Below, one piece after another: positions 7,748-58,900 of a stretch of 64,000 nucleotides of DNA; positions within the stretch are counted from its first letter, which is position 1, and the number at the start of each line of letters is the position of its first letter. The position numbers and the translations under genes are program-made. Source of the stretch: Ancylostoma caninum (Eukaryota; Nematoda; Chromadorea; Rhabditida; Ancylostomatidae); the NCBI GenBank assembly GCA_037903475.1, contig JBAJFG010000389.1:1054001-1118000 (forward strand). Reading direction: 5' to 3'. A model generated the notes under the pieces. That model did not search any database. It was not told the DNA's origin and saw nothing but the letters and a program-made list of their open reading frames with translations.

Positions 7748-10700
7748 CTACCTTAGGTCGTGATCGCAGTAACAGAACGGCCCAACAAAGACAATTACCA
7801 TTTGCGAGGCGGCGTTCTCAATTTTCAAGACCATAACATCGTTGCGAACTAAGTGCCGCCATGGAATGCGCTCAAAATTGATGATCAGGGACGATTTTGC
7901 TCCTGGCTCGAAGAAGGCATCAGTACCGAGGAACGACACCTTGGTCTGAAAAGCAAAGTGTGATACGAATGTGCACGAATGCGCATGAACTTGCATGGGT
8001 GGATGATTTGTACATAGGATGAAATTTGTAGGATAAGTCCACGCATTCCCAATACAAACCGAATCTGTGGTCTTTATTTGTTTCAGTTCCAAATCCTTCG
8101 TTGGCATATCTAATATCCATGCGTACACAGTTGTTTCACTCTCAACCTGTGGATTGAACAGCCTATCAGGTGGGAAAACACTTGAACGAACTCTTGATGT
8201 GTACCTATAAAAGAAATAAAATGAAATTCTCCTCAGATTCAATATGGAAAGAGTGGAAAAGTTCACCAGGTATTCCCAGTATCATTCTGATGAACCCATG
8301 GCTTCGTGCCGTAGATTGCTTCCGAGTGTGAGCTCAGGAATCTGAAAAAATTGTTCATCGTGGTAATTTTTAATAAATTTAATTTGAGGCAAACTGTAAT
8401 CCAGAATCCAAGTCCAAGTCGACATAAAAGCCATTAAGAATTTTGCCCTTTTAGTCGCGTTTTAAGGTGCTATTCAATATAGGTACGTACGTGACTGTTT
8501 CAACATGACTTCCCAAGATCCTTAGCGGGTGATGATCCTAAAACGCTGGTCCATGTTTGTGAACTTGTTTGCGCACCTGCCTAGCTCTCTGAGCCGATCC
8601 TCAAATATAGGAGGAATTTTTCCGTGCATATCTGGACCAACATTTAGCAGAAAATTTCCGCCACAAGATATAGTTCTCGCCAATTGTTCAATCAGCTCGT
8701 GGACAGTGTAGACGTCTGAACTCTGAACCATGATAAAAATTAGATGATCATGGATCATGTGCAGTTTCTTCATTGTTCCAAACAACGGGCTAAAAATCTA
8801 TTTTTCCCACTTTTCCTTTTTTTCTTTTTTTATAAGCTTCGTCCCCATAATAAATAATCAACTCCGTTATTGGAATCTCAGGAACAATTTTTTTGATTGT
8901 ATAGAAGCGCAATCTTTCCTGAATTCCCGTCGTCGTGCTCAAGCGACTCTACTCTACTGTGTGCGACATTAATACATGTTTTTTTCCTAAACCAGAGGAA
9001 ACGGTATTTCCTGGGCTTGCTAGCTTTCTAGAACAACGGCCTAATGCACGTCCGCTGAAAATATTAAATGTGATAGCATTGAATCTTTTGGTACAGAAAC
9101 TAAAGGACGACGCAAATATCATTGCAGCAGATGTGAGAAGGGCACGACTGAAAATTAAGTGTCTGCCTAAGCCGAAAAGTGTCAGATGGCTCATGATATT
9201 TTCGAACTAATTTAGTCATGACCGTGACATTATTGGATGATGATTGGAGCATCGTAAGAAATTAAAGAACGGTGAGGAAATGTTAGTGCACGATCTGCGA
9301 TGAGCATGTTTTTCTTCTAATCTCCTATAAAGTATGTATGTAGTACTTCGCAAAATTAATTTAGCTACACATGGTGTCTTTTCACTCTTTTTTTATGTTG
9401 TTAATTGTTTTCCTCCCTACTAAGTTCGTATCTCCCGGAGATGTCTAATTTCGAAAGCCATCAAGAAATGCGAGGGAATCAAATTTTTAGCGGTCTACAA
9501 ATCTCACCATAAAGATTCATGCCATCGTGGAGGTTCCCCAGAAAATGCAATATTCAAATGTAGTACAGTCTCTGCCCTATTAATCGACGGGTTTGCGACG
9601 TAAAAATTTGGTAAATCTGAAACTTGGCAGTAGGGATCCCTTGCAAAAGTTTTGGTCAGAATGACTACGAATGAATACCAAACTTCCACTGCACTGCAGA
9701 AATATATGAGTTGACTTATTACTTATTCTACATTAATTTAATATTGCAGCAATTTTGCTGAGACCTAATTTCTATATTCACTGTTTTACAACCTTATTTG
9801 TGGAGCAAAGCAAAAGTAGAATTCTATAGAAACTTCCAAACCTTCATGGTTCTTCTGTTGCCCCACGATCCCTTATCTAGTGTCATGCAGTTTTCCCACT
9901 TTCTGCTCAGCAGTTTACCTGAATTACAAGGAATATGTTTCTAAAGTCTGTGGTTGACTTATTACAGAATCTTCAACAAAACCTTTATGCATACCTGGAT
10001 CAAAGTGATCAGCATATGTAAGGAATCCTCCATGCTTACCGATTGAATCACCACCCCAGCGATCGTTTACCACTACAACGTCTTTCACTGGACTATAAAA
10101 AGGAAATTTTCTCTTGTAGACCAGATCAACGCGTTCTGGCCACGCACTATATAGTCGGATACAATGCCGGTGAGGGCACTCACCTGGTATTGTACAACCA
10201 AGCAAGGAATTCTTTGCTCCTCCAATACTCATCGGTCTTACCCCAATCACCGTCGCTCCACACTATTTCCGGTTTGTAGCGGTTCACAATTTCCAGCAGT
10301 TGTGGAAAGGAAACATGCTGAAACACTCCATGCAGTTTTTTGTCATATCAGTGTTCAGAAGCATACATATGTATATGTACATCAACATATGCCGTAGTGT
10401 TATATTTGCCATCATCAAGGAACATCGGATGAAACCACTCAAACAGAGAGTAATAGAGGCCGAAGTGGACATTAGTTCCTTTGAAGGAGTCTTTCAGTTC
10501 ACCTTAAAGAATGTGGTCAGTAGTGACCAAAATGACCAAAATGTGGATGAGTTGATGCAGGATGATTAATGAAAAAAATATGTGGAATAACTCACCGACA
10601 ATATCCCGTTTTGGGCCAATATCGATCGAATTCCAGTTCCAGCTTGTTCTGCTTGGCCACATAGTGAAGCCTTCGTGATGTTTACTAGTCAATACGAAGT

Positions 10701-11741
10701 ATCTGAAGAAAGGTAGGAAAATATTAAAGGAAAATGCGTTTACTGTAATATTTTTATAAAACTGTATTGTATAAAGATTGTGGTGATTATTATAAAGGAG
10801 ATCTCACAAGATATGACTCAGGACAATTGAGGTCATAACTTAGTAAACAGAAGCTATAAGTGTGGGAAGTATCTCACCCATTTTTTAAAAAAATATATTT
10901 CATCTATACGTTACAAGAACACGATGGACATCAGAACTAATTAATACAGTCAAAGGTGGACAATTAACACAGAAGAAATACTGCATTTGAACAATACACA
11001 CCAACAGTTACACTAAAATTTGATGGGATTCTCAATAAATTTCTTTAGATTATCCCGTTGTTAAGTTGAGAAATTACAGGAAAATATTCGAAATTCTAGT
11101 TGGGATGTAGCCTTTATTACCTTGCTCCGGAAGATTTCACGATGTCAGCGAACTCCTTGGCGTTGAAAAGTTCAGCGGTGAACTGAAATTTCTCACTGGA
11201 CTCTCTCTTCCTCATCTTTCAGGAAAAAAAACTTTTGAATACGTAACTATAATCTAAGTAGGAAATATATCCTACAGGTACATAAATACCCAGCACTGAC
11301 ATCTTTGGCAAAATCAGCATAAGTGGTTCCAGGTTTATAGTTGCGATTGATGTAATTCACAACATCCTTGTCAGGGCTAGTACCTTTCCAGTACCACCAC
11401 AGCCACTCAGACCTGAAGATTTTGGGCACTCTCCATTTCATATTGAATTTTCAAGCTGTAGGTGTACGGAATAAAATACTCACCTGAAGGCAGGTACAGA
11501 GTAAACACCCCAGTGGCAAAAGATGCCAAACTTAGCCTCATCGTACCATTTTGGCAGCGGTCGAGCATCCAGGGAAGGCCATGTCGGCTTAAAAAAACTT
11601 CTTCACCACTCATATTTGAGGCAACATGGTTCTGAGGTGTAGGAACCCTATAAAAAGACTTACCTGGTACTTTGCAGAAATGTCCGAGAAGCAGACCAGC
11701 AGAAAGAGGACAGCTAACATGACAGCAGTGCTTATTATCAT
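7748..11741 (-). CDS. Alpha-L-fucosidase (GH29), secreted/lysosomal, 13 exons
   Basis: Hydrolyses alpha-L-fucose from glycoproteins and glycolipids in lysosomes or secretions. Exons (high to low): 11741-11664, 11587-11484, 11412-11301, 11182-11121, 10702-10596, 10502-10381, 10317-10184, 10092-9995, 9918-9842, 8722-8577, 8341-8267, 8204-8060, 7945-7748. They join in frame to 485 codons plus stop, the usual family length. The start is the ATG before a clear signal peptide (residues 1-23). Landmarks: [42 protein letters not shown], then WSDGDW, whose first Asp (residue 217) matches the known nucleophile (human D225). After that come VVNDRWG, KWENC (E281, near the human acid/base region) and SCGGN/LLNVGP. 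The C-terminal beta-domain follows. Exon 3 uses a GTCAGT donor and exon 9 a weak GTTTGG donor. It looks functional. It lies 1.9 kb downstream of CDC50 on the same strand, too far for an obvious operon. Confidence 0.95.
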
Positions 11742-29733: not shown

Positions 29734-32700
29734 ATGCTCTATGTATTACTGGTATTTTTCACATTTCTTTTCCTTACTCACTCAAAGCAAGTATTTCTCA
29801 GGCTACCTACATTGTCGACATACAAAAGAAGTCTCAAAGTGAAGAAAGAAAAGATAAGAAATAAGAGGAACGCGAATCCTTGCTCGAGCATTCTATGCCC
29901 GCAAGGAACTCAGTGCGATTCCAATACAGGTGAGCTGTTTGCCAATACACCGAACTGCTAACACCAGTTTTAACGCACTAGATTGTGCTGGATGTGTCTA
30001 CTTGACGAAATCATACAGCTCGACTTCGGTTAAGCTTTCGAAAAAAAAAAAACTCATTGGCACAAGCAATTGTGGAGATTTCCACGAAAAATGTTGGAAT
30101 CATTGTGTTCAGAAGTTTTATTTTAAATAAATAAAGTAAATAAAGTAAAGTAAATAAAATTGGGCATTGTCTGCAAACCCTTCTATGTTGCTAGAAATGT
30201 CTTCAAAGTAATGTATTGTCAAAATTGCACATTTTGAGCCTTTGCACTTTGCATAACCCAGTCTGCAGTTTATATATGCCACGACAGCACTTATACATAT
30301 ATCATGTATTTGCGAGAGGAGACATACCTGAAGCCGCTGGCGGAAGGAGCGTTCGTCGTGCTCAAAACTGTGTATCCGCTGATAGGAAGTTTTCACTTCT
30401 AGGAATATGCAGGCCTTTCCGACCATTGCCCAATTATCCAGCTGCAACTGATCCATGCTCAGGAGTGGTATGTCCTCAGGGAACACAGTGTGACACCAAC
30501 ACTGGTAAGTTCTGTTCATTGTGGGCAAGCGTAGCTTCGAACCGGTTAATCTCGTTGCTGAAGAGATCAAAGTTATGCTCCTGCCTAACGTCTATTAGAT
30601 CCCTAACTTGCCCCACGAAATAGGAACTGAGCCACGAATATTATGCGTACTTGTCTATTTTGCCGTTTATTTACTAATTCAATCTAGTAATCAGCGGAAA
30701 AAATATGACGGGTTAAGGAGGAGCGGTCCATGTGACGGCTCCACCTCCCCCACCCCGCAGACGCTGAGTTGGTCAACGTGTCATGTCCTGTTCGATCGAT
30801 AAGATCAGACTGGATATATAGCTTTCCAAATTAATTTGACTCACTCAACTGACCCCGCTCCGATAAACAACGAGTTTGAAAGCCCTACTCAAAAATTTTG
30901 GGTGCAAAATTTGTTAGTAGCTAACAAGTCAATGTCTTCTCAGGAATCTGTCGACCATTCCGTCCCCTGCCCAACCCTCCAGCTGCATCGGATCCATGCG
31001 AACGTGTCTCTTGTCCACAAGGAACAGCATGTGATACAAATACAGGTAGTACAATAAGCACATATCACGTATCAAGTATCAAGCACATATCAAGTATTAC
31101 ATGGTGGTCTCATTACATACATATTACCACTAGCTGCAGTACCCGGCTTCGCTGGGGTGTTTCACTACCTTGGCTACATCATACTGCTGAGGCCAATTAC
31201 TATCACCGATAAATTCATTAAAATCTCCATAATTTTGGTGATCAGTATGTTAGCGAAGCCCAGGTGACCCATTATCACCGACCATGAAAAGTTAGCAAAA
31301 CTACTTCGATGACATTGAATCGACGTACTCGTACAAAGTTGTTGTCATATTCATACTCAGCGTATCGAGGAACCCCAGGAGAAATGTCTTCACCACTCCA
31401 TTGGGCGAAGAGCCAATAAAATCGATAAATCGATATTCCATGCAAAGCGGTTGTCATATTCGTATTCAGTCTATTGAGGAACCCCAGAAGACATGTTTTT
31501 GTCCGCCCCGAGCGGAAATGGGAAAAAATCGATAAAATCAATAAATCAATATTTCGTGCGAAGTGGTTGTCATATTCGTATTCAGCGTATTGAGGAACCT
31601 CAGAAGACATGTCCCCACCGACCCTTGTGCAGAAATAACGAAAAATCAATACAATCGATATAATCGATAAATCAATCGATAATCCCAGGTGCAAAGTAGC
31701 CTATAACCTCCGCCGGCCCCTCACGGACCTGCATGCAAAATTTGGTTCGGATCGGTTGACTCTTCGCGATTTCTATTCGGAACATACACACAAACACACA
31801 AACTTTCACTTTTATATATATGTACAGATAAATATGACGTTTTTGCCATTCTCTACAAGCTTAGCTTTTTTCACACCTTTTAGCATTAGTAGGTAGTGTT
31901 GCTCATGAACATAACCAGTGAGGAGAGATAGTTCCTCAACAAAGTCTTTAGGAATTTGTCGCCCGTTCCGGCCGCTGCCTCCAACTGCTGCAGATCCGTG
32001 TGATAGTGTAGTCTGTCCACAGGGAACTCAATGTGATAGAAATACAGGTAATCGCTTGTTTAAATTCTGAAAATGTCCGGTCAAGTCCTATGCTTCCTCA
32101 TAGCTCTTCTAGAACAAACTTCTGTATAATATTAGGAAAACGGAGGTGGCGGATGCAGGGGCGGGGCGTTCGAAATAACCTTAGCAAACATATGGACATT
32201 TTGTATTGATTTATTTTTTATTGCTTATTTCTGCTATTTTTTTCAAATGTTTATTTATATTACTAAATATTAAAATCGATAATTTTGGCATTCTTATTAT
32301 TCCATGCGGGTATATGTATACTCGGAATGGCGGATTGCCACTTTCTTTCCCACGCCTGGCCTGGGATTTCTCGCGCCCGGAATGTGGTGATCATGTCAGT
32401 GGAACCGTAAATGCAGTTTTTCTTTTCTTCTAGTTATAATGAATGACTGAAAAAGATTCGTCAAATCGAAGTGAATGGCTGCCGTTTTGTGTTGCACACT
32501 TGCAGAGTACGTGCGAGTGCACGACGACTATACAGCGAGCTACATAGAACGTGCTGCAATGGCAGAAATAGTGTTGCACTGGAAAGTGCAGCACCTCCTA
32601 TCAGTAGATGCCGCAGCACCAATGTTGTTGCATAAGACACTACAGCAACACCACCTTGTCGCTGCAGTAGGATCGTTACGTCACATGTTGCTGTGTTAGA

Positions 32701-34087
32701 AGAGAACAACGGTGGCAGCACCAACCAGGCCGGAGCTCCAGATACCGTAACTCTGAAGCATTCTTCATCGGATTGACCTTGATAAGCGCTCTCAAAATCG
32801 ATCTATGTAATTTTCGGGTGGGTTGCATCACGAAAAGCCTAAAAACTGCATATCGAAAATTTTGATTGGACCTTGCCTTTAAAAGCAGTGTCCCACTTCG
32901 TCTTCGCATTAAGGCTCTCAGAAGATTCTGGATCTCCTCGATAAGCTGATGCCAGCGGTATACATAAAATATGTCTCTGAACGAGTTTCTTTGAACGTTT
33001 TTCCAGGAAGGGGTCTATAGTAGTTCGCTGCACCAAGTCAGCGTATAAAGTCATTGATCTTATCGATCGAACTCGTCAAGACTTGTTTTCAGTCGCTGCA
33101 GCAGTGACGGACAGCCACCACATACGCACCGCTCCGCCTAAATGGGGGCGAGAGGAGGGGGGGGGGGAATTTTCTGGAAGAAAAAAGAGGGACAGAGGTC
33201 TAGCGCTGTCCACATTCTCAGTCTCAAGAATTCTGGGAATTTATATGGATCTTATTCGTTTGCCCATACGAAAATAGTGCTCATCATTTATAATGTTCAC
33301 GCAAAAAAATATCCGTTTGCCTTTTAAAGATGCACGAAAGTGAGAACACTGTATAAATCCGAGAGGTTGGAACGAATCATTGTCATAGTGATGTCCTATC
33401 TAAATACTGACTCAAATTACAGGGATATGTAGACCATTCCGGCCACTGCCAGATGCACCAATAGGTAAATGCCAGGGAGTTATTTGTCCACAAGGAACTG
33501 AATGCGACACGAATACAGGTATTTGTGCTGCTATCTGTAACCGCTGAGAAAAATCATTGCAAATCATCTGTTTCAGGTATATGTCGACCTTTTCGGCCTG
33601 CGGATAGCACCACAGCATCATGTCCTGCAAACTCTTACTACAGCGATTGTGCTTCACCCTGTCCACCCACATGTACGGAGGCAGCCACCCGCTGCAGGTG
33701 GTCTTTGAATGTCGTAGATTCTCTAATGTTCTTATTTATTGAGTTATTGTTACCTTTTCAGTCTTGCATGTATTCCCACTTGCGTCTGCAATAACGGATA
33801 TACACAGGCCAGCGCAACCGACACAACTTGCGTTCTATCCACTCAGTGCAGCGTATACCAGGCAGACCGTAAGCCATCTGTCTTGAAGACCAGTATATAC
33901 AATTTCCAAGTAGCAAAACTGTTCAGGTTGCACTGCTTTGCAATGTCCATCGGACATGACATGTATCGACGGTTACTGTAATCCTAGGCACTGTCCAATG
34001 GTGGTTAAACCACCAATCCGTTCCGGATGCCGGTACATGCTCACAAGAAACGTGAACAATTGCCTTACGATTGATTTGTCTTGCTGA
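29734..34087 (+). CDS. Secreted cysteine-repeat protein with TIL (trypsin-inhibitor-like) domain, 326 aa, 8 exons
   Basis: Probably a secreted protease inhibitor or binding protein; the target is unknown. Exons: 29734-29929, 30403-30504, 30944-31045, 31952-32047, 33423-33518, 33577-33697, 33762-33868, 33927-34087. They give 326 codons plus TGA, in frame throughout. A signal peptide and a Lys/Arg-rich linker (to about residue 48) precede five modules of the form PCxxVxCPxGTxCDxNTG-GICRPFRPLP, mostly one per exon. The introns between modules split the same Gly codon in phase 1, so exons 2-5 are symmetric 1-1 units of 96-102 bp. Exons 6-7 encode a TIL domain with the full ten cysteines (CPANSYYSDC...C...CIPTCVCNNGY...C...C). 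The last exon has a CP-x-MTC-x-GYC and GCRYMLTRNVNNC tail. A polyadenylation signal AATAAA lies at 34171-34176. TIL domains inhibit serine proteases or act as structural modules; the repeat module itself has no assigned function here. Confidence 0.88.
31130..31830. repeat. Dispersed element with internal tandem units, copy 1
   Basis: It starts near ctagctgcagtacccggcttcgctggg and ends near cacttttatatatatgtacagat. Inside are three imperfect units of roughly 110 bp containing ggttgtcatattcgtattcag, gaggaaccccagaagacatgt and a run of atcgataaa. It lies in intron 3 of the TIL gene. A second copy with fewer units is at 38395-38885. The long minus-strand open frame across it arises from the tandem units and is not a known protein. 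Confidence 0.7.
32143..32390. mobile_element. Old hAT-type MITE copy
   Basis: The left end GGTGGCGGATGCAGGGG then ttcgaaat, the AT-rich interior and the right-arm trace (gaatggcggattgccactttctttcccacgcc) align with the intact copies at 38.0 and 54.4 kb. The right terminus is eroded. It sits in intron 4 of the TIL gene. Confidence 0.5.
32550..32850. repeat. Dispersed repeat A, copy 2
   Basis: Counterpart of 29095-29390, in the same orientation, inside intron 4 of the TIL gene. Confidence 0.6.
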
Positions 34088-39259: not shown

Positions 39260-40044
39260 AAGGACAACTTCAACGTCGCATTTCGCCGCTTACAAGCTCT
39301 CCTTCGCACACTACGCGACGACAAAGAAAAGCTTCGTATTTACGATGACACATTCCAAATTCCATCAAGGAAGGGATTACAGAGGAGTGCGCTTTCAACC
39401 CTGCAGGAGTAACAGCATTCTATCTCGCTCATCGACACGTGCGGACACCTGGAAAGAGCACTGAGCTACGAGTTGTATTTGAAGCATCATCTCATGGAAG
39501 AAACGAATTCAGTCTCAATGATGTCACATACGAAGGCCATGCTCTCACTCCATTGATTCACGAAGTGTTACTGCAGTTCAGTACGCATAAGAACTATGGT
39601 GGCCGACATTTAGAAAGCCTTCCTACAGATAAGGCTGCCGGGACACCATCGTGATGCGACAAGATTTCTATGGATTAAAAATCAGAACTCTTCAGCAGAA
39701 GATGATAACGTCAAGTACTACCGCTTCTACAGAGTCCTATTCGGGAAGAATGCAAGTCCAGCTATTCTGAATCAGTACATTCTCAAGCATATCGAGCAGG
39801 AAAACAGTTCTATAGGGAAAGAACTGTCAAATTCCTTATACGTGGACAACATTCCCCTTGAAGGAGAAACTTCCGACGATTTGATCAGGAAATACACTGC
39901 CTCCAAGCAGGTGTTCTTTTCAATCGGAATGAACCTGCGGGATTACCTGTCCAACTCCTGAACAGTCAACGGCACCATCAGAGAGTCGGATAGAGCAAAA
40001 GACAAGGAGATCAAAGTGCTTGGCCTCAGTTGGAACTCCATCAA
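39260..40044 (+). pseudogene. BEL/Pao retrotransposon reverse-transcriptase fragment, decayed
   Basis: Plus-strand translation in more than one frame shows the Pao-type signature order: an LAHRHV then TPGKSTELRVVFEASSH block, SLNDV, then after a deletion/frameshift near 39640 HHRDATRFLWI, a YYRFYRVLFGKNASPA block and SLYVDN, corresponding to the catalytic YVDD motif but with Asn in the last position. It then reads GMNLRDYLSNS followed by a stop and KVLGLSWNS. The frameshift, internal stop and missing protease, RNase H and integrase show it is dead. It is truncated on the right by the foldback at 40046. Confidence 0.8.
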
Positions 40045-45475: not shown

Positions 45476-48400
45476 TAGGAGCACCTCTCTTCCAGATTTC
45501 GGGTTGAACTGAGAAGAGCTATCAATGTCGTACCATGTGATCTACAGTTGGTCTGTAACACATGGAGCACAATGGTTCCACATCGTAAGCTTCGACAGGA
45601 CATTGCTTCTGGAATTGGCGTGCCTCCTCAGACCCAGCGTGCCAGACGAGCAGAGCACTGCTACAGAGCACACGTACGACGGAGATGTTGCTGCGCCGCG
45701 ACGAGATGCGTCGTGCGATGCTGTGGCAGTTCTACTGCTCTTGCCCGTAGATACTTAGGAAGATGAATGTTTCAGCTCAAAACTTTATGAGCTAGTACTC
45801 GCAATCCTCGATATTTCCTATTTTTCTTTGCGGCTTCGGAATAATTTCTCGAAAGATCAATTACTTATGTCAATTACTTACTGCCCTATGTTAAAATGAG
45901 TCAAAATTTGAGAAACATGCACACATAGTTTATTCAGTTAGGACACTAAACAGACCCGAAAAACAAATCACCTCCACTGAGAAGAAACACTTCGATATCA
46001 AAGAGTAATCACTACGGGTAAATAAAAATACTAAGAGAGATCGGTAAAGTTATGACATCGATAATGTTAAATATACAATATGTACACAACCAAGCGAAGA
46101 ATGTCGTTGAAATGCGCAATGTTAAAAAATTTAAGTGAGAAAGAGAAAATAGCAGAGGAACCTTTGTGGAAGACGTTATTCAGTAATGGAAGTAAAACAA
46201 GAACTTGGACTTACGAAAATCAAACATGGACTTACGAAAATCAAACATTTGAACTCAAACAAAACAAGGACGATTTGAAATAAATGTACAGCATAAACAA
46301 AATAAAACTATCCAAATAAGTGAAAATGTCTCCTTTCGTGCCTAAACGCCAAACTTATTCGTGGTATGAAACGGGTCTGTCGTTCACCTTCTTCTCAGGG
46401 GTTAAAATTAACCTCTGATTAATTTTGTATTCCAATTTTTGTTATCCTCCCCACAGATCACACCCGCGATAAGCAAGAAAATTTATCTCAAGTAAGTCAG
46501 ATCTGGTCGTAACTGGTGACGGAAATTTAAAAAAAAAATCCATGAATATGCGGATGAATTTCATTGTGGTGCAAGCATGAGATTAAGTGGACTGTAGTGA
46601 CTGAGTTCTTCAAAGATAAAATGAGAATGAAAATAGAGGGCGCCGGTAAAATATTACAGTTCAGCGCTTCAATTCAGTGATACAATATTTAATATCCTGC
46701 GATTCACATATTTTGACTACTTACCTTCAACTTTGTTACATCTAGAATTGTGAAACTAAGCACATGCTTTCCCACCCTTTCTCAGAACTGTCATCCTGAG
46801 AGGTTTCATATACTGTATGCCTCCACTTATCTTCTCTCTCTGATATCTTTAAGGAGTAGCTGTTCAGTACCATATCAATTGCAATTTTAGCAGTCAAAAA
46901 ATATGATTTGTGATGGTAATTTCTCAGCCATACTACTATAGCGCTAAAGACAGATTTGAAAAGGACGGCTGTAGATATGAGAAATCGTATTATTACGGCC
47001 TAGTAAGTGTGGTAGCTCCGCCGGTGTACTGTGCATAAAGGACTTCCACCTGGTGTTAAAAACAAAAATATAGACATGCCCCTCCTTGAAAAGTTGGTTT
47101 GTCATCTCTCAAGCATGAAATTACTCTCAGAGCTCCGCTTCCTATTCTCTTATTTTTTAGCATAACAGAAATGGATGTTCAGAAAGAGTCCACACAGTAA
47201 GTTACGAATGAGGAGTATAAATTTGTTCAACGACGAATTTGTTGGAAGTTGTTCCTTTGAAGTCTTTGTTGGATAGGAAGCTGTCAAGGTTTCATCCAAG
47301 CACACCCAATAAATAAAAATCCACCTTAGCAAACTAGTACTAGACCTTCAGCTTAGTATAAACTGGCTCTTATTTTTGTTGGTGGGCATGCGAAACATGA
47401 GAAATGGGTAATCATGAGTGTACCAAAAGACATACCCTGAACGTTTGGAGATGGAGATTTTCGAATATCCAAATAGAATCCAAAAATTCTTTAACTGATT
47501 TGTCTTAATCAAGCGAAAATCAAAATTTTCATTGACTACCAGTAAAAATGAAGAAGAGCTGGTCTTGGATTGAAACATGGAGTAATTTACGAAGGCGTTC
47601 TTGAAATCAACAGAGTGACAAGTATTCTAGAAGCGTCAAGATTGAAATGATGGCAAAAGCATGGAAGTACCAAGAATTTGGCGTGGTACACTCACTGAGA
47701 ACTTTGCAAAATTTTTGCCCGGAAAAATTGCAATTAAGAGGCAAATTCATGGAAACAGTGCGTGCAGTCTCAAACGGCACATGTACACAAAAAGAGATAA
47801 TTTTGGAGACCGTTGCAAAAAGCATTCACAAAACGCATTCAACTTCTAGTTCCCCACAAGAATCGAAGCCCGAGTAAGGCTTACGTATAAGGCGCAAAGT
47901 TATGTCATGACCAGATTTTTCGAAAATATCAATTCTCCAGTTGTGTGGATATTTAGCTGCACTTGGAGAGCAAGATTTACATCCAATAAAATCGAAGAGA
48001 AATATTGTAAGGAAGGATGGTTGCCATGAGCACAGCGAATGCTCACCAAACTGAAGTATTTTGCGACGTTGAAGAGAGTAGCGGATCAGGTAAATTGAAT
48101 GAATCTAGACTCGTTCAAGCCAACTAGTGCAAGCTAATCAAGACCATTTTGGAAAAGGGAACAACTCAGTGTGGACGAATTACTCAAGTTCAAATCCGAA
48201 AGGAGAGAGGTAAAACGAAAACATATGCATAAAACGTGTCTTTTCAATTGAAGTTGCACTTCCGATTCACTTCCTTCTTTAAAAAAAAACGAGTAAAAAA
48301 CCGATCAGTATAAAATCATGCAACGCCAGCGTTGGCTATGTTGACAATTTTAAACTCTTCATGTTTGGAAAAAAAAGGAATATAAAAGAGATCAAGAGCT

Positions 48401-48589
48401 ATCTTTTCATCAACGACTAGACATAGCTCTCGAAATTGACCCGTAATTCGCTTATGAAGAACAAATAAAACGTGACGTTATAAAAATAGAACAACGCAAA
48501 GATATACAATTTGCAGAACGTAGATAGAAATAAAACTCCATGAGTCAAATAAGGAGGTTAAAACAGGCGGAGTAGAACTCTAACTTGAA
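45476..48589. other. Intergenic region 3' of NELF-A
   Basis: AT-rich, with no recognised gene. A 21-bp unit, tggacttacgaaaatcaaaca, is repeated twice in tandem at about 46206-46248. Confidence 0.35.
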
Positions 48590-51289
48590 TTATGTCGGCT
48601 GCTGTTGTGCTTGTGAATGGTAGTCTTCTGGTGGAACAAACATGTACTGTTCACCAGCATTGTTTAGCTCATGTGGCTGAAGCAGTCGACATTTACGTAG
48701 GCGTTTCCATTCACCACTTTGGTAATCCATCTTAAATGTTGGATATACGTTAGTGACATTTTCAAGCTATGTCAGTAAAAAGATGTAGAAGCATAAGGAA
48801 TAAGAAATAAATACAAGTGATCATCACTCGAGCTCTGGATTCCTTCGATCCTCTAACTGACATCAAAGGAGCTTTTTAAAGATTCATATTAAAACATCTT
48901 TCTGCAATAATCTTCGCCCGCAAAACAAAGCGAGGGTCAGGAAACAGACCTGGAAGAAGGTTTCGACCTTCATTTTGCACATTTGATTATCCGCAAGTCC
49001 ATCTTCGATTGTTTCAGAAAGCTTCATTGTTATTATGTGACCAAGTTCAGGACGTGGGTTACCTATAACAAGTTTTGGCACGCATCAACATGATTTGCAA
49101 TGAAAATAAATACCAATTTCAGGGGATTTAGTTAATCTTGATGTAACTATTGGGACAGCTAACCTTACAGAATTCTAGATAATCAGCAGAATTAGAATTT
49201 ACTGCAACCTCCCCTCAGAAAGGAAAAACGAACCAAAACAGACTGACACCACCAACTCACATTTGTTCCCTGTCATGAACGCCACCACTAGCTGCCGCCC
49301 ATTCTCATCTAATGAGTTCGCATTGCGAAGCATCTCATTGCATTGGTTCATGATGGCTGCTTCCCGAGCCTGAAGAGGTGCCAGTAGTAGTGAAAATGTA
49401 CAAATAAGCTATGTTTTATGGTATATGAGTTTTACTGAGAACTTACTCGTTGGGCAGGTGTTCGCTGATCACGTACAGGAGTAGAAACCCAGATCTGATT
49501 CGCACCGTAACCAGGATGAGGGGCTCGATGAACCATGGATGGCTAGAAACAATCACAAACAGATTGCAACCACGACGTTAAATCAACGAACTACAATCCT
49601 CAATTACAACCCCGTCCCTTTCGCCAAACAGAATGGAAGTTATAAAAACTGTACAAATTAGAACTAACGTGTTGAACAGGATGAGCCATGTACTGTTGAT
49701 GAGGTGGATGCGGATTATTCTGCATGATGCGTGGATGAGGTTGAGATTGATGAGGAACGCGATCCATGGGCTCTCTGTTCATGTAGTTATCATGCTGAGG
49801 TGGCATCTCTTGTTGGGATTCTAATAACGGCTGCTGTGTTTCCATTCTTTCAGGATAGCTGGGGTTCGAAGAAACAGAAGGCTCGGACGTTTGATAATCA
49901 GACATTGAGGGTGCAGTAGAATTGTTGTCCTGCAACGTATTAAGCTATAATATCTGAAGAAGAGACAGACTACAAAGAAAGCGGTGATTTTGGAAATGAT
50001 GAGAACAAACTACCTTGTCGCTCTCTTCGCTGATAGAGGGATTACGCACATTTTCGATGCGTGGTTTCTTCTCAACAGGTTTTTTCGAACTCTCTTGAAG
50101 CTTTTGCTGCGCAGCTCGCTTGGCCTCCTTAACAAGCAAAGCTAGGTATTCATACAAAAGCCATACGAAATGATCAATATATGTATGTGAAGCAGAAAGA
50201 TGCAGTTGAACACCAACCTCTCGCTCTCGCTTGTCTTCCAACGCCTTCTTTTTAGCTATTTCCTTCTCCTCCTGCTTTCTCTTTCTTTCTTCAATCATTT
50301 CTTGCTGACGGCGTTTCTTGAGGGATTGGGGTAACTCACAGATATCTGAAAACACAAAGATGTGCTTAAGACACAACTCTGCTGAATTGACAAGATGTTT
50401 CGAGTTCATGTCGTGTTAAGGATCGACGGCAAAAACTAATGAAAATATCCTAAGTAGCAATGGACGTTCAAAATCCCAATACAATTCAATTCAGTGTCTG
50501 AGCATCTCTCTTCTTTCATGCATTGAGTGCAAAAACTACACCAACCTAATAATTTGGCTCCACCTTCACGTTTCGAAAGTTGTCTCTGGAACTTCTTCGG
50601 TTCATAAGTGAATCCTGAATTCAGCTTGCAAGTGTTCTGAGTCGGAATCCCTTTCATGGGTACTGAAAGAGTAACAATGTGGGTAGAGGTACCAAAGCAT
50701 CACAATAACAGGCAAAAGAGAAAGAGGTAAGTGAAAACCAACAATCATTGTTGCCTGTGCGCAGGGTTGATCGTATCTTTATGGGTACCGATGCACTCCA
50801 AAGCCCACTGTTCCGTTCGCGGTTTGTATCAGCCAACTTTGCACATTCTGTAAGAATAGAAAAACTAATAAGAAAATGGAAGAGTGAAAATCGCAAATAA
50901 TTGGAAAAGGAGCCGCCGTTACAGCCGCTGTACAGACAAAGGACGCATCAAATGGATGATAAACAGTCACTTCTTCAAATGTATAGAAAGAAATGTGGAA
51001 CTCCCCAGCCGTGAACAAGTAAACTGCAACTAAATCCACGAGATAACGTACAGAGCCTTATTAAAACAAGGGAAAATAGAGAATCTATTCTTCGAAATGA
51101 GAGTGAATATGAAAGGATTATTAGAATTCGCTATCATTCTTGGCAGTACACTGAAATACAGTTCAAACAATAAAATTTACCTCAAAAACGACTCTGTCTT
51201 CGCAATACCACCACAGTGATTTTTAATGCTAGTCAAAGCATGAGAACACGAGAGACACAAAATGCAAAAATTGATAAAGCTTCGGTCAA

Positions 51290-51365
<76 letters not shown>

Positions 51366-54310
51366 AAATGCTAGACTATAACAATTATTCCCACTGACAA
51401 GAACGACAGGTGCTAGCTAATCCGCAAGCTTATACATCTACTTCTGTTCTACATTGTTATGCTCGAACAAATGACATCTTCCCCTCATCTTTACATGATC
51501 CCTAACTTTCAAATAATCTGTGTTCCTTATCGAGCCAGAGAGAGAATAAAGTGCATGTTTTTGATTGAGTCATAGGTAAATTAAAAGCAGAGCTCATAGA
51601 TTCATCCTATGTACCGAACACGCGCCAAAAACACAGAAAAGTGGAAAAATGAAAATTAATATGTATGCTTAAGGTGGCACTAGCCAGAAGCAATGCACAT
51701 GAAGATGAAGAATAAGAATGACAGAACGGCGAAAAAAAGGTTACTAAGACAGCTGCTGCCTAAATGTAAGCTTGTTTTCGATTTGATGGAAGATAAAGAT
51801 TTGCTGTTTAAGTGCCTTCAATATTTAACAGACACGAAAAGTTAATGATTATTCTACACATCAAATGCAGATAGCTTTCACTACACGCAAGAGTTATCGA
51901 ACTAATAAAGGGAGAATGGCGCAGAAATAAGAAATGGGAGTATGCAATCCCTTAGAGACTGAACCCACTGGAATTTTCGCTTCCGAAGTGAAAAATTTTA
52001 TCTATAAAGCGATTTTAGAGCCTTTTACTGTGAAGGAAAACAAGTAACCATCAAACACCTTTGAATGTACAGCATACCCAGATCTGGCCAAGGAACGACT
52101 ATATACTGGTATTTGTCAAGACGACCACAATACAAAAAAGGGATCAGCAAAATGGCTAGAACAAGAAGCAACACTTTCAGACAATCGTGTCGGAACCATA
52201 TAGCATAAACGGCCTCGCCATTTGAGGGAGTTCTTGTTCTAACACGTTAGCTAACTCAACGTTTGTCAAGAAGTGTGCTTTACTTTCTTTCTTCGTCTAT
52301 ACTGATTTCATGGAGGGCAACTGATCGGACAATCCACCAAAAGCGTAATTCGATGAAGTTTGTACGATTAACGGTTAGCTACACTATGTACATGTAATTT
52401 AATAGCGTATATGAAATAAAAACTATCGCCGAACTGGCACCGTCAGGAGGCAGCGCAAAAGAAGCGATTTCACCAACTGAAATCATTTTGCCTTCCTTGC
52501 AGTTGGTATAGAACTTGTTCTACGTCACGATGCGTAATGACAGAAATGAGCGGGACCTTTTCATCAACAAAGTAGTCAGCATTCGTACATCGGCATCTTT
52601 AACTTAATGAACATTGAAATCTTTGAGGTTTATCCTGAAGAGGCAACAAGATAGTGTTTATGAGGCCTCTCAAGTAAAATATACACCTATATGAGATCAG
52701 TTTATACGAAGGGATAAAGTAGCGCACACTTCTTTACAAATGTACGAGTGATCTAACGTGTTAGAACAAAAAAAAAAACCCCTTTGAAGAGCGAGGATGA
52801 TTCCTTTATGTTGTCCCAATACTATTGTCTGAAACTGTACCTTCTCGTTTTCGCAGTTTTGCTACTTCTTTTTCTGTGACTTCAATGTGTCCTACTATAT
52901 CCACGAGTGATTCCGCGGTAGCATCCACAATGTCGCAACAAGTACCCATCCTTCGTTTATCCTTATCTGTTTGAAGTATCTACGCGAGTGGGTCATCTTT
53001 TCTAGTACATTTTCACGGTTGTGATACTCCGACAATCTTTTGCGCGTAAAACAACTCAGATAGGAGATGAAAAAATTCGTGGGAAAATGCTGATTGGAGT
53101 GAAACATGAAAGTTGGAAAATGCAGTTTCGTCTACAAAAGACATGAACAAGAGAGTGACTTCCACCACAAAGATATTAGGTTGTAGAGAAAATTCTCGCG
53201 GTTTTTGGAACATTGCATTTTCTTGACGTTTCGAAAACAGAAAAGCACATTAAGAAATGTATAGAACACCATCACGTACTATTACTCTTCGCTCATTTTT
53301 GGAAAGCCTTTCGATGCCCTCGGCATAGAACAATTTCGGCATTGAGTCAGAAAAATTGTCCAACTAGCAATCCAAGTCATCTTCATTATCGAATGCTCTA
53401 CCTTGCATGGAGTCAGAGGGGGACAGGAGAAGGTGGTTATGTTTCAAGGCAAGGTAAGGGCTGTACGTTGAGCAAGTCAGCAGTTCCCATCCAAAGCCGG
53501 GTAGCTTCTGGAGAGTCACACTTTCAATATGTGGCCGTCGTGCAGAAATCGGAACTTTCCGTGATTCGGACTCTTCTCTGCGATTTTTGCGGCCAGTCTA
53601 TCCGGCTGCTGATAGCACAGGTCTAGCGTGAGGGGCAGTGGCGGTTAGTGGACGATGCCTTTGCTGTGACACCGAGCAGTGACCAAAACCTTCAAAGGGT
53701 GATCACCCGTCTTCTGCTGCGGCTCAGGCTGCTCATCCTTGTCAACTCAGTATCGATGGTGCTGGGTGTTGACGTACAGACACCATTTCTCACCTCCAGT
53801 GAAGATGGACTTCAGCTGGTTTTCAGTGCTCCTGTACGAGAGCAATTCAGTAGCCACCTCTGCTCATCACTTGAGATCGCACCCGGTCAGATCATGATAA
53901 CTCACTGTGACAATTTTTGTCCAACTGACGCAGGTGATCGACGATGATGGCAAAGTGAACATCCGAGACTTGCGTCTTTTCACGCGAAGTTTGCCATGGA
54001 TCCGAATCCATCAACTGCCACAAGCGATCAGTGGCGACGCCGGATGCGCGTCCCGGCTGGGCGGAGACATTGAGGTTGATGTCGCCAACAGGAAGGTGTC
54101 TGGATCAATCCTGTGCAGTGCGTTCGAATCCTGTACCGTCCCCAAATACAGCGTTAATGCGGCAACTGGATGCGGCTGCTGATTATCCAGACTTGAACTT
54201 TTATACGGAAAGGTGGCAAAATTTCTGTTTTGAAAGTTCCATATTCCTGGACGGGACTGTGCAGAAGTTTGCAGAGTGATAGCAGTAATAAACTTGCACA
54301 TACCTGGCCT

Positions 54311-54369
<59 letters not shown>

Positions 54370-54649
54370 TGGCGGACGCAGGGGGGGGGGGGGGGGGGGG
54401 GGCGCCCCCCCCCCCCCCGAGAATGGGTCGCCAAATTTTCGAAATTACTTTACAATACAAATAAAAATCTTGTGTTAGTTTATTTTTAATTGTTTATTTT
54501 TATTATTATTTTTAATATATTTTTTATTTATTGTTTATTATTATAATTAATATTATTATTAATTTTATTTTCCGTCTGGGTCCCCAAAACGGCGGAGACC
54601 CCACTTTTCTTCCCACGCCCCCCCTCCCGCCCACTTTCTGCGTCCGCCA

Positions 54650-54695
<46 letters not shown>

Positions 54696-55931
54696 AAAGA
54701 CAGATTGCTTCAAGGCAGCGCGGTGTTTAAAAAAGCACACTTTCTAAAAAAAGCGCGAGAATTTCCACTACAACCTAACACAAATGCAACTATTACCATG
54801 AGCAAAACATTGCAAGGGCGAATAAAATGGGAAAGCCGGCAGAATGCAAACTCACGCTTTGTCATTTCGTTTGAGAGATTGAAGGACTTCGGCTTTTTGC
54901 GAAGTATAAAACATTTTTGCAGTTCAGGAGCAGCGCCGAAACTTGCCTAAACGTAGACAAAAACATGAAATAAAGAGTGACGTACGATTTAATTGAAAGA
55001 AAAAGGAGTTGAAGGCAATGTCATACCTTGTTGACAGATGTGCTCGCAATGTTGTGTCCCTCAGGTGTGAGTTTTAAATTACCAGCTTCAAGATGTCGTT
55101 GGACTGAAATATTTCGAAAAAATAAGCTCATTAATACTAGTCCAATACCAGTCTAGAGCAACACTCACAACATTTCGTTAGGTCATCCAGTGTTTTAGCA
55201 AAATGGGAATCTTTGTTAGTAGAGACAGGAATGATCACTCCAGTTGACGTTATATCCCTGAAATGAGTTAATAGTTTGTCCTCATCAAAGCTAGTTGTCA
55301 GTAAAATTGATTGAAAAAGATGAGAATGACAAGTGAGGAGAAGAAGCCTAACCTGTACATATCGGCGATCGTTTCAACCCAGTCATCAGCATCTTTGCTA
55401 GCGAGGTCAAGCAAGGTGGTTAGAGCAGCGTGAGTCTATAATAAATAACTTGTACGAACAATTTAATACTGACCACCACAACACAGATGAACTCACCATG
55501 CTCATTTTTCGCGGGTTCATATGAGGTATACAACAAATTATTTTGAGTTTCGTTTGAACGTCAATGGCCTAGAAAATGATCAGTTGAACGGAGGGGAACT
55601 TTTAAAAAAGACATATTGGGAATAGAAAAATGAAAGGAAAAATTAGGTAGATCACAAACCTGGAAACAAGTTTCTAACTCTTCAAGCATTTCTCTGGACA
55701 ACATAGAAGCCGTCATTCGTCCCGACCACACACCGGCATCATTCAACTTCTTTTCTAACCAATTCACCTAATTGCGAAAGTACGAGTTCAATATGGAAAC
55801 TAAGCATTAAGAATTAAAAGCAAAAGTTTTGAAAAATTCAAAAAGGTCCAACTCACCAAGTCCATATCTTTGAGTAATGATGCTTGAGATGAACTAGGAA
55901 AATAAACACCAGTCCTCCCTGGGTCAGCCAT
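48590..55931 (-). CDS. Negative elongation factor subunit A (NELF-A), 592 aa, 16 exons
   Basis: NELF-A is the subunit of the nuclear NELF complex that, with DSIF, holds RNA polymerase II at promoter-proximal pause sites. Exons (high to low): 55931-55857, 55767-55660, 55568-55497, 55435-55353, 55257-55169, 55103-55027, 54946-54856, 50847-50743, 50662-50546, 50345-50218, 50127-50014, 49929-49669, 49542-49447, 49369-49261, 49062-48950, 48730-48590. All phases agree and give 592 codons plus TAA (human about 528). Matches to human NELF-A in order: WLEKKL (27-32), VQTKLKIICCIPHM (human AVKLKLLLGTLHL), LASKDADDWVETIADMY (LASLDSDPWVLMVADIL), FILRKKPKS (FQLKRKPKS), PMKGIPTQ (PLKGIPKQ), LLDICELP (LLDISELD), a Lys/Glu coil, a Pro/Gln-rich linker, NQCNEMLRNAN and VVAFMTGNK (ILGFMAGSR), IITMKLSETIED (VIQIKLSEHTED) and MDYQSGEWKRLRK (MNYATGQWTRFKK). 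Intron 7 is about 4 kb and full of transposons. No lesion seen. Confidence 0.95.
51293..51361. repeat. (TA)n microsatellite
   Basis: About 34 uninterrupted AT dinucleotides in intron 7 of the NELF-A gene. Confidence 0.95.
53230..54215 (-). pseudogene. Mariner transposase pseudogene
   Basis: Minus-strand translation, with frame changes and stops, shows the mariner order. An N-terminal RLWQLMDSDPWQTSRE block is followed by GEKWCLYVN (family GDEKW.LY.N), a VDKDEQPEP-like block with a stop for the conserved Trp, then KGIVH. The C-terminal part has LPGFGWELLTCSTYSPYLA, where the last catalytic Asp of the D,D34D set should follow but the sequence has drifted. After that come FDNEDDLDC-stop-LDNF and FYAEGIERL. 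At least three in-frame stops show it is inactive. Confidence 0.8.
54367..54652. mobile_element. hAT-type MITE inserted in a (TA)n tract inside the mariner
   Basis: 286 bp, with the same CAGTGGCGGACGCAG termini and the same interior as 38030-38317. The two copies appear to differ essentially only in G and C run lengths. It is flanked by ATATATAT on both sides, consistent with an 8-bp duplication of the TA microsatellite (left tract about 54316-54366, right tract 54653-54692). Confidence 0.9.
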
Positions 55932-58900
55932 ATTCTAAACAGAAGATTTCTCACATTAACCGCAAAGTACAGTAATACTTCAACGTGAAGTGACAGTCGA
56001 ACTGAAGAAACTGACTTAGAAGCCAGGCAAAGCGAAAGGGGAATACCGAGCAGTGCAGATAGCGGTATCTGAAATAACAGCGAATATGGTCAGCTCTTCT
56101 TGCACAACAGAATAAAATGGTCCTCCAGAATAGAAGCTATTTATTCGCGAAAAATCAATGGGGAAACTAAACGGTTTTATGCATACATTCCGTTAACTAA
56201 ATTGCAGCTGGCGTAGTCACGGTCAACACTCTCGCCTGACGCACAGAAAGAATCATATGCCAATTTTGGAGAACAAACCACAAGAACATCAGCAGCGTCC
56301 GGATGGGTTCCAGGCATTGATTTTAAATAAAACAGAAACCTCTGTTTGTAGAATTTGTAGTGCCGGTACTGTAAAATCCACTGCTGTTTGTGGGGCTTCT
56401 GTCACTCGGCACTATTATTCGGCTATGTACCTCCACTACAAAAATTTCAGAAAACGGTTTGTCTACACTCCTCTGAGGGACTTATTTGAGCTAGTCACGA
56501 AAATCATACTCATTTCGTACTGTGGCCCGTACGTACAGAGTAATGGCAGGTACTGTCAATTTCAATAATATTGAGTACTGGACGTGTTGTAAATTCGAAG
56601 CTGGGACAGGCAAGTAGCACCATTTGGCTCATGTCCACCTTTATAGAGAATACCATTACGTGTCGAGTGAAAAACTGATGATTCATCGATGATATGTGGT
56701 AGATACGACATCTCAAAGAATCTTCTGAAGCTTTGAGCAGTGCGGTTATTTAATATGCTCATCACATCATCAGTACTGTATTACATACATACCTCTGCCA
56801 CTCTTTTGCTTAAATAATCATTTTCTTACATTTTCTTGCAGCGCTGCTCAAGAATATAGGCGCCGTTCTACGAAACAGATCATACTTTGCAAAATCCATG
56901 TTTAATGTCCGAAACAACCCCTGCTCCCATCCTGTAGTTTCAGAGTTTCTGTGCGGCACCGTATCCAAAGTTTACCTGATTTTTCTTCTGAAAAACGAGT
57001 TCCAGAACGAAATCAGTATAGTTTCCGTGACCATTCCATTAGATAACACGTCCAGGCAAGGCCTGAGCGATTCCCTTAGATATCTAAAGCAAGAAAGGCC
57101 GAATAGTTCTAAGCAATTGGTTTTTCCGTTTGGCGATTCCAAATTAGGTGATTGATGCAACTACCTTCTACAAATTTATCTACAAACCTCTGGCTGGACT
57201 TTCGAACAGCCTTTGATGCCCTTTTAGCCGGTCCTCCTTCAGCGGAACTATGCCGCCATTATCTATAGTCTGTTTCATTGTGGACGACTGTTGAAGTAGC
57301 GCCAGAGAGAGGAAGAGCATGGGAAAGTGCACAACAATTTGAGAGGGTGATGAGAAAGACAGGCAATACTCCTCGATTATTTAAGTATCGCCGCATTTGA
57401 AACAGAGTATAACAATGAGTTCTCATCTGTTCAGCAGACGACTTCATCACCTTGTCATTGGTAGCCTGAGTCGGCAGTAACTAATAAAGCTTCGCGACAC
57501 AATCAGTCGCAGTCAGTCACAATCAGTCGCAATTAGTTCATGGGAATTTGTTGCAGAAGAGAAGTGGAGAAAGGGTCGGAATAGGAAAAAATAGGTAGTT
57601 GCAGAAGCGAATCGGTTCCTTGGATCGCGAAGCAATCAGGATGATCCCACGGACGACGAGCGCCGTCAGAGTTAACTAGACGATGAGGCGACGGAAGCAA
57701 CCTCTGTGGTCCCACAAAGTCCCGCTCTTGTGGGCTCATGGAAACAGTGTAATGTTGTTCTCAAACAGAATTTTAATAAGAATTTTTATTCACTTGATAA
57801 CTACATTAGCTCTCGTCTCCAGCATAGAAGGGATAACTTATCTTATGATATTGGGCTGGGGTATAAGTTCGAGCGGTTTTTTATGGGTACAGGAACGACT
57901 AATTTCCACGAACATTCTCAACCACACTGAATGGGTTGCATAGCTCTTTCCGTCTTCTATTAATGCTGCCAGAGACAGGGCAGCTTGTCAGCTCCATGTC
58001 TACGAAAAATTACTTTGTTTGAGACGACTAAAGAAAGTTGATGATACGACATCGGGGATTTCAATACTCTGATATTCCAGAGTCTGCGCAACGAAATAAG
58101 TTGTATAGTCTTCATACTTAAGTTCTCAGAGAAAATTGTTTAATGTACGTTCTGTGTTCAAGATAGTTTCGAACATGTACGAAATTCGATTAACAAATTT
58201 GTACAAACTTTTGCCATCCAAAACAAGAGGACTTCCCTTCAAGATTTCATATCCGAAACCAAAAAGAAGAATAAGGCAGCAATCATTTACTGCTTGTGCA
58301 GGGTCCGTATTTTTGCAATTACGGACAGGTTTGACACCCTGCTGGAAAACTTTTGCATTGTTCAAACGAATCTCTGCACGCGTCCTTCTAATGTATTAGA
58401 TTGTGTGCTTCTGTGTATACCTTGTAGTGTATTTTTTCATAATCAACTGTAATTTTCTTGAATAGTTTGTTTTGTATCGCGATGTAACCTTATCTCACGA
58501 CTGTCTTAAATAGTCGTAATAAATCTATTTATCTATAAAAAAGCTATGCCCTAAACCTGTGGAGTCGGTAGTAGTGAAAGACCTCTACCTTTTTTTTGCT
58601 AGTCATTTTGATGAAATTTGCGTGAAGAAATCGAGCACATCCAATGCGGACGACCACGTCATATCGAGCATTTTGGGGTTTTGCAAAGAATGCGTACGCT
58701 AAACCCAAACATTGCTGAGAATTTGCATTAGCAGTGGTCATTCCTTAGATCTGAAACAACTTTAGCGGATAATCTCCTTTATGTCCCCAAAAACTGGGCG
58801 TTCAGAACGAGAAGCAACTTAAAAGCCAAATTTGCCCTGTCTGAAGTGGATTTACCATTTCTATGCTGTCCTTTCAGCAGTAAAGGTCCCTCTCCAAATG

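Follow-up and report, generated by a model that had tools for sequence, protein, structure and literature searches.

On the minus strand of the window, the whole stretch of 64,000 nucleotides that was analysed, lies a NELF-A gene made up of 16 exons and 15 introns (Table 1). The introns all have GT...AG ends and their phases close a single frame, giving a coding length of 1779 nt, or 592 codons, with zero internal stops. A sequence-only reading had described a 592-codon, 16-exon gene with consistent phases; rebuilding it from the minus strand gave the same gene. The N-terminal, middle and C-terminal conserved blocks named in that reading are likewise all present, each being recovered in alignments to human NELF-A and to the homologues described below.

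Table 1. Features of the NELF-A gene and other features of the window (window coordinates)
Feature	Position	Strand	Remarks
NELF-A gene	55931..48590	-	16 exons, 15 introns
Acceptor-like site	55935-55939	-	TTTAG
Exon 1	55857..55931	-	start codon 55931..55929
Exon 2	55660..55767	-	NELF-A N-terminal domain; W39, aligned with human W24
Exon 3	55497..55568	-	NELF-A N-terminal domain
Exon 4	55353..55435	-	NELF-A N-terminal domain; W104, aligned with human W89
Exon 5	55169..55257	-	N-terminal domain / extended region
Exon 6	55027..55103	-	extended region
Exon 7	54856..54946	-	extended region; basic FILRKKPKS motif
Intron 7	50848..54855	-	4008 nt; TA repeats and palindromic insert resembling a mobile element
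Inverted repeat in intron 7	54326-54693		76-nt arms
Exon 8	50743..50847	-	middle block
Exon 9	50546..50662	-	middle block (PMKGIP ... KREGGAKLL)
Exon 10	50218..50345	-	middle block and charged helix
Exon 11	50014..50127	-	charged helix, then variable linker begins
Exon 12	49669..49929	-	variable linker
Exon 13	49447..49542	-	linker
Exon 14	49261..49369	-	C-terminal block, helical part
Exon 15	48950..49062	-	C-terminal block, beta strands
Rejected extension of exon 16	48731-48766	-	alternative in-frame acceptor at 48766
Exon 16	48590..48730	-	C-terminal block end; stop codon 48592..48590; start set by homologues
Searched for poly(A) signal	48001-48589	-	A[AT]TAAA absent
Open frame	8525-8797	-	alpha-L-fucosidase (PF01120)
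Open frame	10507-10803	-	alpha-L-fucosidase (PF01120)
Open frame	30925-31209		cysteine-containing
Cysteine-rich stretch	33465-33791	+	cysteine-rich, trypsin-inhibitor-like
Open frames	39349-39958	+	reverse transcriptase, read by eye

Gene model and integrity

The start of the last exon was set by comparison with homologues. An alternative in-frame acceptor upstream would add 12 codons (604 in total), but the added residues are absent from all 25 homologue rows and this form was rejected. In 21 of these 25 aligned homologues an ETFFQ-like motif is directly joined to MDY (or MDF, MNY), which makes 48730 the first position of exon 16; of the remaining four, P0032 and P0034 are without the block, P0004 is without the motif and P0026 carries a different insert of 7 residues. 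If stops were as frequent as in intron 7 (187/4006 triplets), 592 codons would stay open by chance with a probability of about 5e-13, a figure which overstates the case because the exon ends were chosen by hand to keep the frame; for the same reason, the gene call rests on homology and not on this number.

A stronger control on the gene model, at the level of the encoded protein, is its agreement with an independently deposited protein of A. ceylanicum, P0001 (hypothetical protein Y032_0028g1717 / HDAg domain-containing protein), which is also 592 residues long and identical to the window protein at 575 positions (97%). Identity to the Necator protein is 516/592 (87%). Of the 17 substitutions relative to A. 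ceylanicum, 13 fall in exon 12, where 74/87 residues are the same, compared with 92–100% in the other exons; the C-terminal exons 14, 15 and 16 are identical throughout (36/36, 37/37 and 46/46). Exon 12 coincides with a low-confidence stretch of the predicted structure, and the clustering of differences within it is as would be expected under purifying selection.

Intron 7 contains an inverted repeat whose arms are 92% complementary, the flanking TA repeat included, and whose inner part starts CAGTGGCGGACGCAGG. This inner part resembles a small non-autonomous DNA transposon, hAT-like by eye. At the other end of the gene, an acceptor-like site lies 3 nt ahead of the start codon, directly before AATATG, and suggests that the NELF-A mRNA may undergo spliced-leader trans-splicing. 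Between the stop codon and position 48001 the poly(A) motif A[AT]TAAA was not seen, and a variant signal may be in use; in other respects the gene looks intact.

The repeat insertions in this 4 kb intron, together with the missing A[AT]TAAA signal downstream of the stop, could be taken as marks of a decaying pseudogene. Set against them are the 592 codons open from end to end, the intact splice ends, and the confinement of most differences from A. ceylanicum to the disordered exon 12. On these grounds decay was rejected as an explanation and is considered very improbable.

The rest of the window holds several further features. Two open frames on the minus strand match the alpha-L-fucosidase family (52.8 and 62.2 bits; cut-off 25.2) and are probably exons of one gene. 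A cysteine-rich stretch resembles trypsin-inhibitor-like (TIL) domains at 20 bits, below the Pfam cut-off of 24.5, and a cysteine-containing frame had no Pfam match. Other open frames read by eye like the reverse transcriptase of a BEL/Pao-type retrotransposon; the two of them scanned had no Pfam match either. Searches of the 64,000-nt window with Rfam at gathering thresholds and with a tRNA scan returned nothing.

Identity as NELF-A and its predicted role

The product belongs to the NELF-A family. In a Pfam scan a single family was matched, NELF-A_N (PF23553), at residues 27–154 with an E-value of 1.2e-13 and 51.6 bits, the cut-off being 27; the query was the 604-residue form, in which the 12 added residues are remote from this domain. 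Human NELF-A (6gml_U; E 2.8e-25, residues 20–558) ranked first among 177635 distinct PDB sequences, and with it the N-terminal domain, the KGIP...KLLDI middle part and the C-terminal block are collinear. The identity proposed in the sequence-only reading is thus borne out by the profile search and by the best PDB match.

The same assignment was reached from structure, using a model predicted for the 97% identical A. ceylanicum ortholog in place of the window protein itself. This model has a moderate mean pLDDT of 61, with disordered linkers, while the N-terminal domain and the C-terminal block lie mostly above 80. Five PDB chains matched it with E <= 0.001 (9j0n_U, 6gml_U, 5l3x_A, 8uhd_U and 8uha_U), and all belong to entries whose matching chain is NELF-A, as named from the PDB sequence search. 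Human NELF-A (6gml chain U, 5l3x chain A) and the hookworm protein therefore have in common the order of their blocks and, by way of the A. ceylanicum model, their fold, whereas their linkers differ.

Residues known to make contacts in the human protein are kept in part. In a crystal described in a passage of PMC4940160, W24 and W89 of human NELF-A enter pockets of NELF-C; W39 and W104 of the window protein align with them and are invariant in 25/25 aligned sequences. The basic RNA-binding patch given in the same source comprises R65, R66, K146, K161, K168 and R175. In the alignment to human NELF-A, the counterparts of R66, K161 and K168 are basic in the window protein (three of six), whereas R65, K146 and R175 align with P, S and S, so half of the patch is not kept in the hookworm.

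By homology with the human protein, the N-terminal domain of the hookworm protein most likely binds NELF-C/D, where its two tryptophans would occupy the NELF-C pockets as seen in the human NELF-AC structure. RNA polymerase II would be overlaid by the middle and C-terminal parts. Together with NELF-B, NELF-E and DSIF, NELF-A would then keep the enzyme paused a short way downstream of promoters until CDK9 released it. Membership of a NELF complex, pausing and release in the hookworm are all proposed on this homology.

NELF-A across nematodes

Thirty-eight homologues were recovered in a protein search. Seven of them are nameless, and the 31 named rows, which represent 29 species, are without exception nematodes; scoring was limited to the 7995 candidates with the most words in common, so the search is weak on non-nematode relatives and on absence. 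PF23553 is present in 37/38 homologues, the exception being P0009, in which the beginning of the domain is missing. Among the species are Steinernema, two Mesorhabditis and Caenorhabditis bovis, together with strongylids, ascarids, filarial and other spirurids, and plant-parasitic and other tylenchine worms. Two deposited models of Mesorhabditis spiculigera (P0027 and P0036) have a long N-terminal extension that is unlike NELF-A and membrane-like by eye, and are probably fused gene models.

A first tree was built from the window protein, 25 of the 38 homologues and one sea-lily outgroup, which came from the search with the C. bovis protein described below (27 rows); the 13 left out were the 7 nameless proteins and 6 named ones that were short or near-duplicates. 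In this tree the window protein pairs with A. ceylanicum (support 100/100), within the hookworms (100/98) and within the strongylids (100/99). The spirurine rows group together at 96/98, the tylenchine rows with Steinernema at 87/94 and the clade V rows at 93/92. In a second tree, restricted to the N-terminal and middle part and built from the window protein, 19 of the 38 homologues and the outgroup, the clade V rows again come together (86/77), but the spirurine rows do not form one supported group. On balance the trees argue that NELF-A was inherited vertically in nematodes.

The source organism is very probably an Ancylostoma, and hence a clade V strongylid, because of the 97% identity to A. 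ceylanicum and the position in the tree, and a species other than A. ceylanicum is the most economical reading; the strongylid conjectured in the sequence-only reading is in keeping with this. That the locus is host or other metazoan DNA contaminating a nematode assembly is very improbable. Nothing was found in its favour, and it was rejected on the identities to A. ceylanicum and Necator and on the nesting within the hookworms at 100/98 support; moreover, the contigs that carry the deposited orthologs reach 35.5 Mb.

The presence of NELF in a nematode, by implication a surprise in the sequence-only reading, has precedent. A passage of PMC4940160 reports NELF-A and NELF-C of Loa loa, the only explicit nematode NELF among the literature passages compared, and the Loa loa NELF-A in our set (P0020), from a filarial worm, has the same family and block order and shares 43% identity with the A. 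ceylanicum ortholog. Passages of PMC6436959, PMC7917550 and PMC3687364 describe C. elegans as being without NELF, and secondary loss of NELF-B and -C/D in that species has already been proposed (in a passage of PMC11482795). Given these reports, and with all 31 named rows being nematodes, neither nematode NELF nor its secondary loss in C. elegans is new. A passage of a 2026 preprint (PMC13131478), in which nematodes in general are written of as without NELF, sits badly with the NELF-A genes found here. Among the literature matches listed, none announced a map of NELF across nematodes, and no paper on NELF in C. bovis was found.

Caenorhabditis bovis and the proposed loss of NELF

The C. bovis protein (P0034) has 667 residues and is encoded on a contig of 10.06 Mb. 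It matches the window protein at 198/592 residues, including 28/38 in exon 9 and only 4/46 in exon 16. The two have in common the N-terminal fold, the tryptophans and the middle motifs: P0034 contains PF23553, the key tryptophans W64 and W129 and the middle motifs, and its predicted fold has five PDB matches with E <= 0.001, to the same NELF-A entries as the A. ceylanicum ortholog. They differ in the tail, where the deposited model of P0034 is without the C-terminal block and has Q-rich predicted helices instead; the block may have been truly lost or may have been missed by annotation, the protein fitting both.

In the trees P0034 joins the strongylids within a clade that also holds Mesorhabditis, with support of 94/88 in the full alignment and 89/86 in the N-terminal and middle part. 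In the latter its end branch is 1.84, against 0.00–0.31 for the other clade V rows; those of Steinernema (0.95) and Meloidogyne (0.84) are long as well. The protein falls where its species belongs, albeit with moderate support, a long branch and, in the first tree, an unusual letter make-up. Contamination from a sampled strongylid was considered for this protein also and rejected, because its identity to the strongylid rows is 36–43% where they match and its contig measures 10.06 Mb. Passages of PMC9682657, whose tree included 36 Caenorhabditis species, and of PMC7991662 place C. bovis in a basal group, or in a separate basal clade, of Caenorhabditis.

Two further searches started from P0034. 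One with the whole protein, in which only the 7996 candidates sharing most words were scored, missed Mesorhabditis and Ascaris, both present among the 38 homologues above; the Q-rich words of the query may have crowded out relatives. The other, with residues 45–345, had 5828 candidates and reported no cut among them; it yielded 11 proteins, none from a second Caenorhabditis. Absence of NELF-A from other Caenorhabditis is suggested by this result, but suggested only, because the same search also missed Mesorhabditis, as well as the named ascarids.

The sequence-only reading had held that, were the species a strongylid, loss of NELF in Caenorhabditis would be secondary and recent. The absence in C. 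elegans does look secondary; a loss covering the genus is too wide a claim, since C. bovis carries NELF-A. We lean, by a little, towards a loss of NELF inside Caenorhabditis after C. bovis had split off, with the C. bovis protein as a fast-evolving intermediate which has kept the NELF-C-binding fold and lost the C-terminal block. Until a proper survey is made, the better place for the loss is inside the genus and not at its base.

The C. bovis protein also bears on whether NELF-A might persist without the rest of NELF, in another job (RNA binding or Integrator contact, for example) taken up after the complex had dissolved. As the sole Caenorhabditis match, with a long branch and a deposited model without the C-terminal block, it looks as if it were partly unconstrained. 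The tryptophans of the NELF-C interface are nevertheless invariant in every aligned row, exons 14–16 are identical between the window and A. ceylanicum, and Loa loa has NELF-C besides NELF-A (in the passage of PMC4940160), all of which make such a solitary role improbable. We are highly confident instead that the window gene, carried by a hookworm that is very probably an Ancylostoma, is functional, orthologous to metazoan NELF-A and vertically inherited within nematodes, and that C. elegans lost the gene secondarily while C. bovis keeps a divergent copy.

As a gene, the window NELF-A is an ordinary ortholog, and its interest lies in the corrected map of NELF. C. elegans has been studied as an animal without NELF; because 29 named nematode species have NELF-A, its absence there looks like a local loss, and related worms with and without the gene offer natural comparisons. 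It has been suggested, in a passage of PMC6436959, that the lack of NELF speeds the production of piRNA precursors in C. elegans, and this suggestion is open to comparison with those clade V worms that keep NELF-A. If the loss within the genus is true, a series running from the full NELF-A of Ancylostoma or Mesorhabditis through the reduced one of C. bovis to its absence in C. elegans would reveal the stepwise cost of discarding NELF, and the stepwise comparison would extend to the piRNA precursors of clade V.
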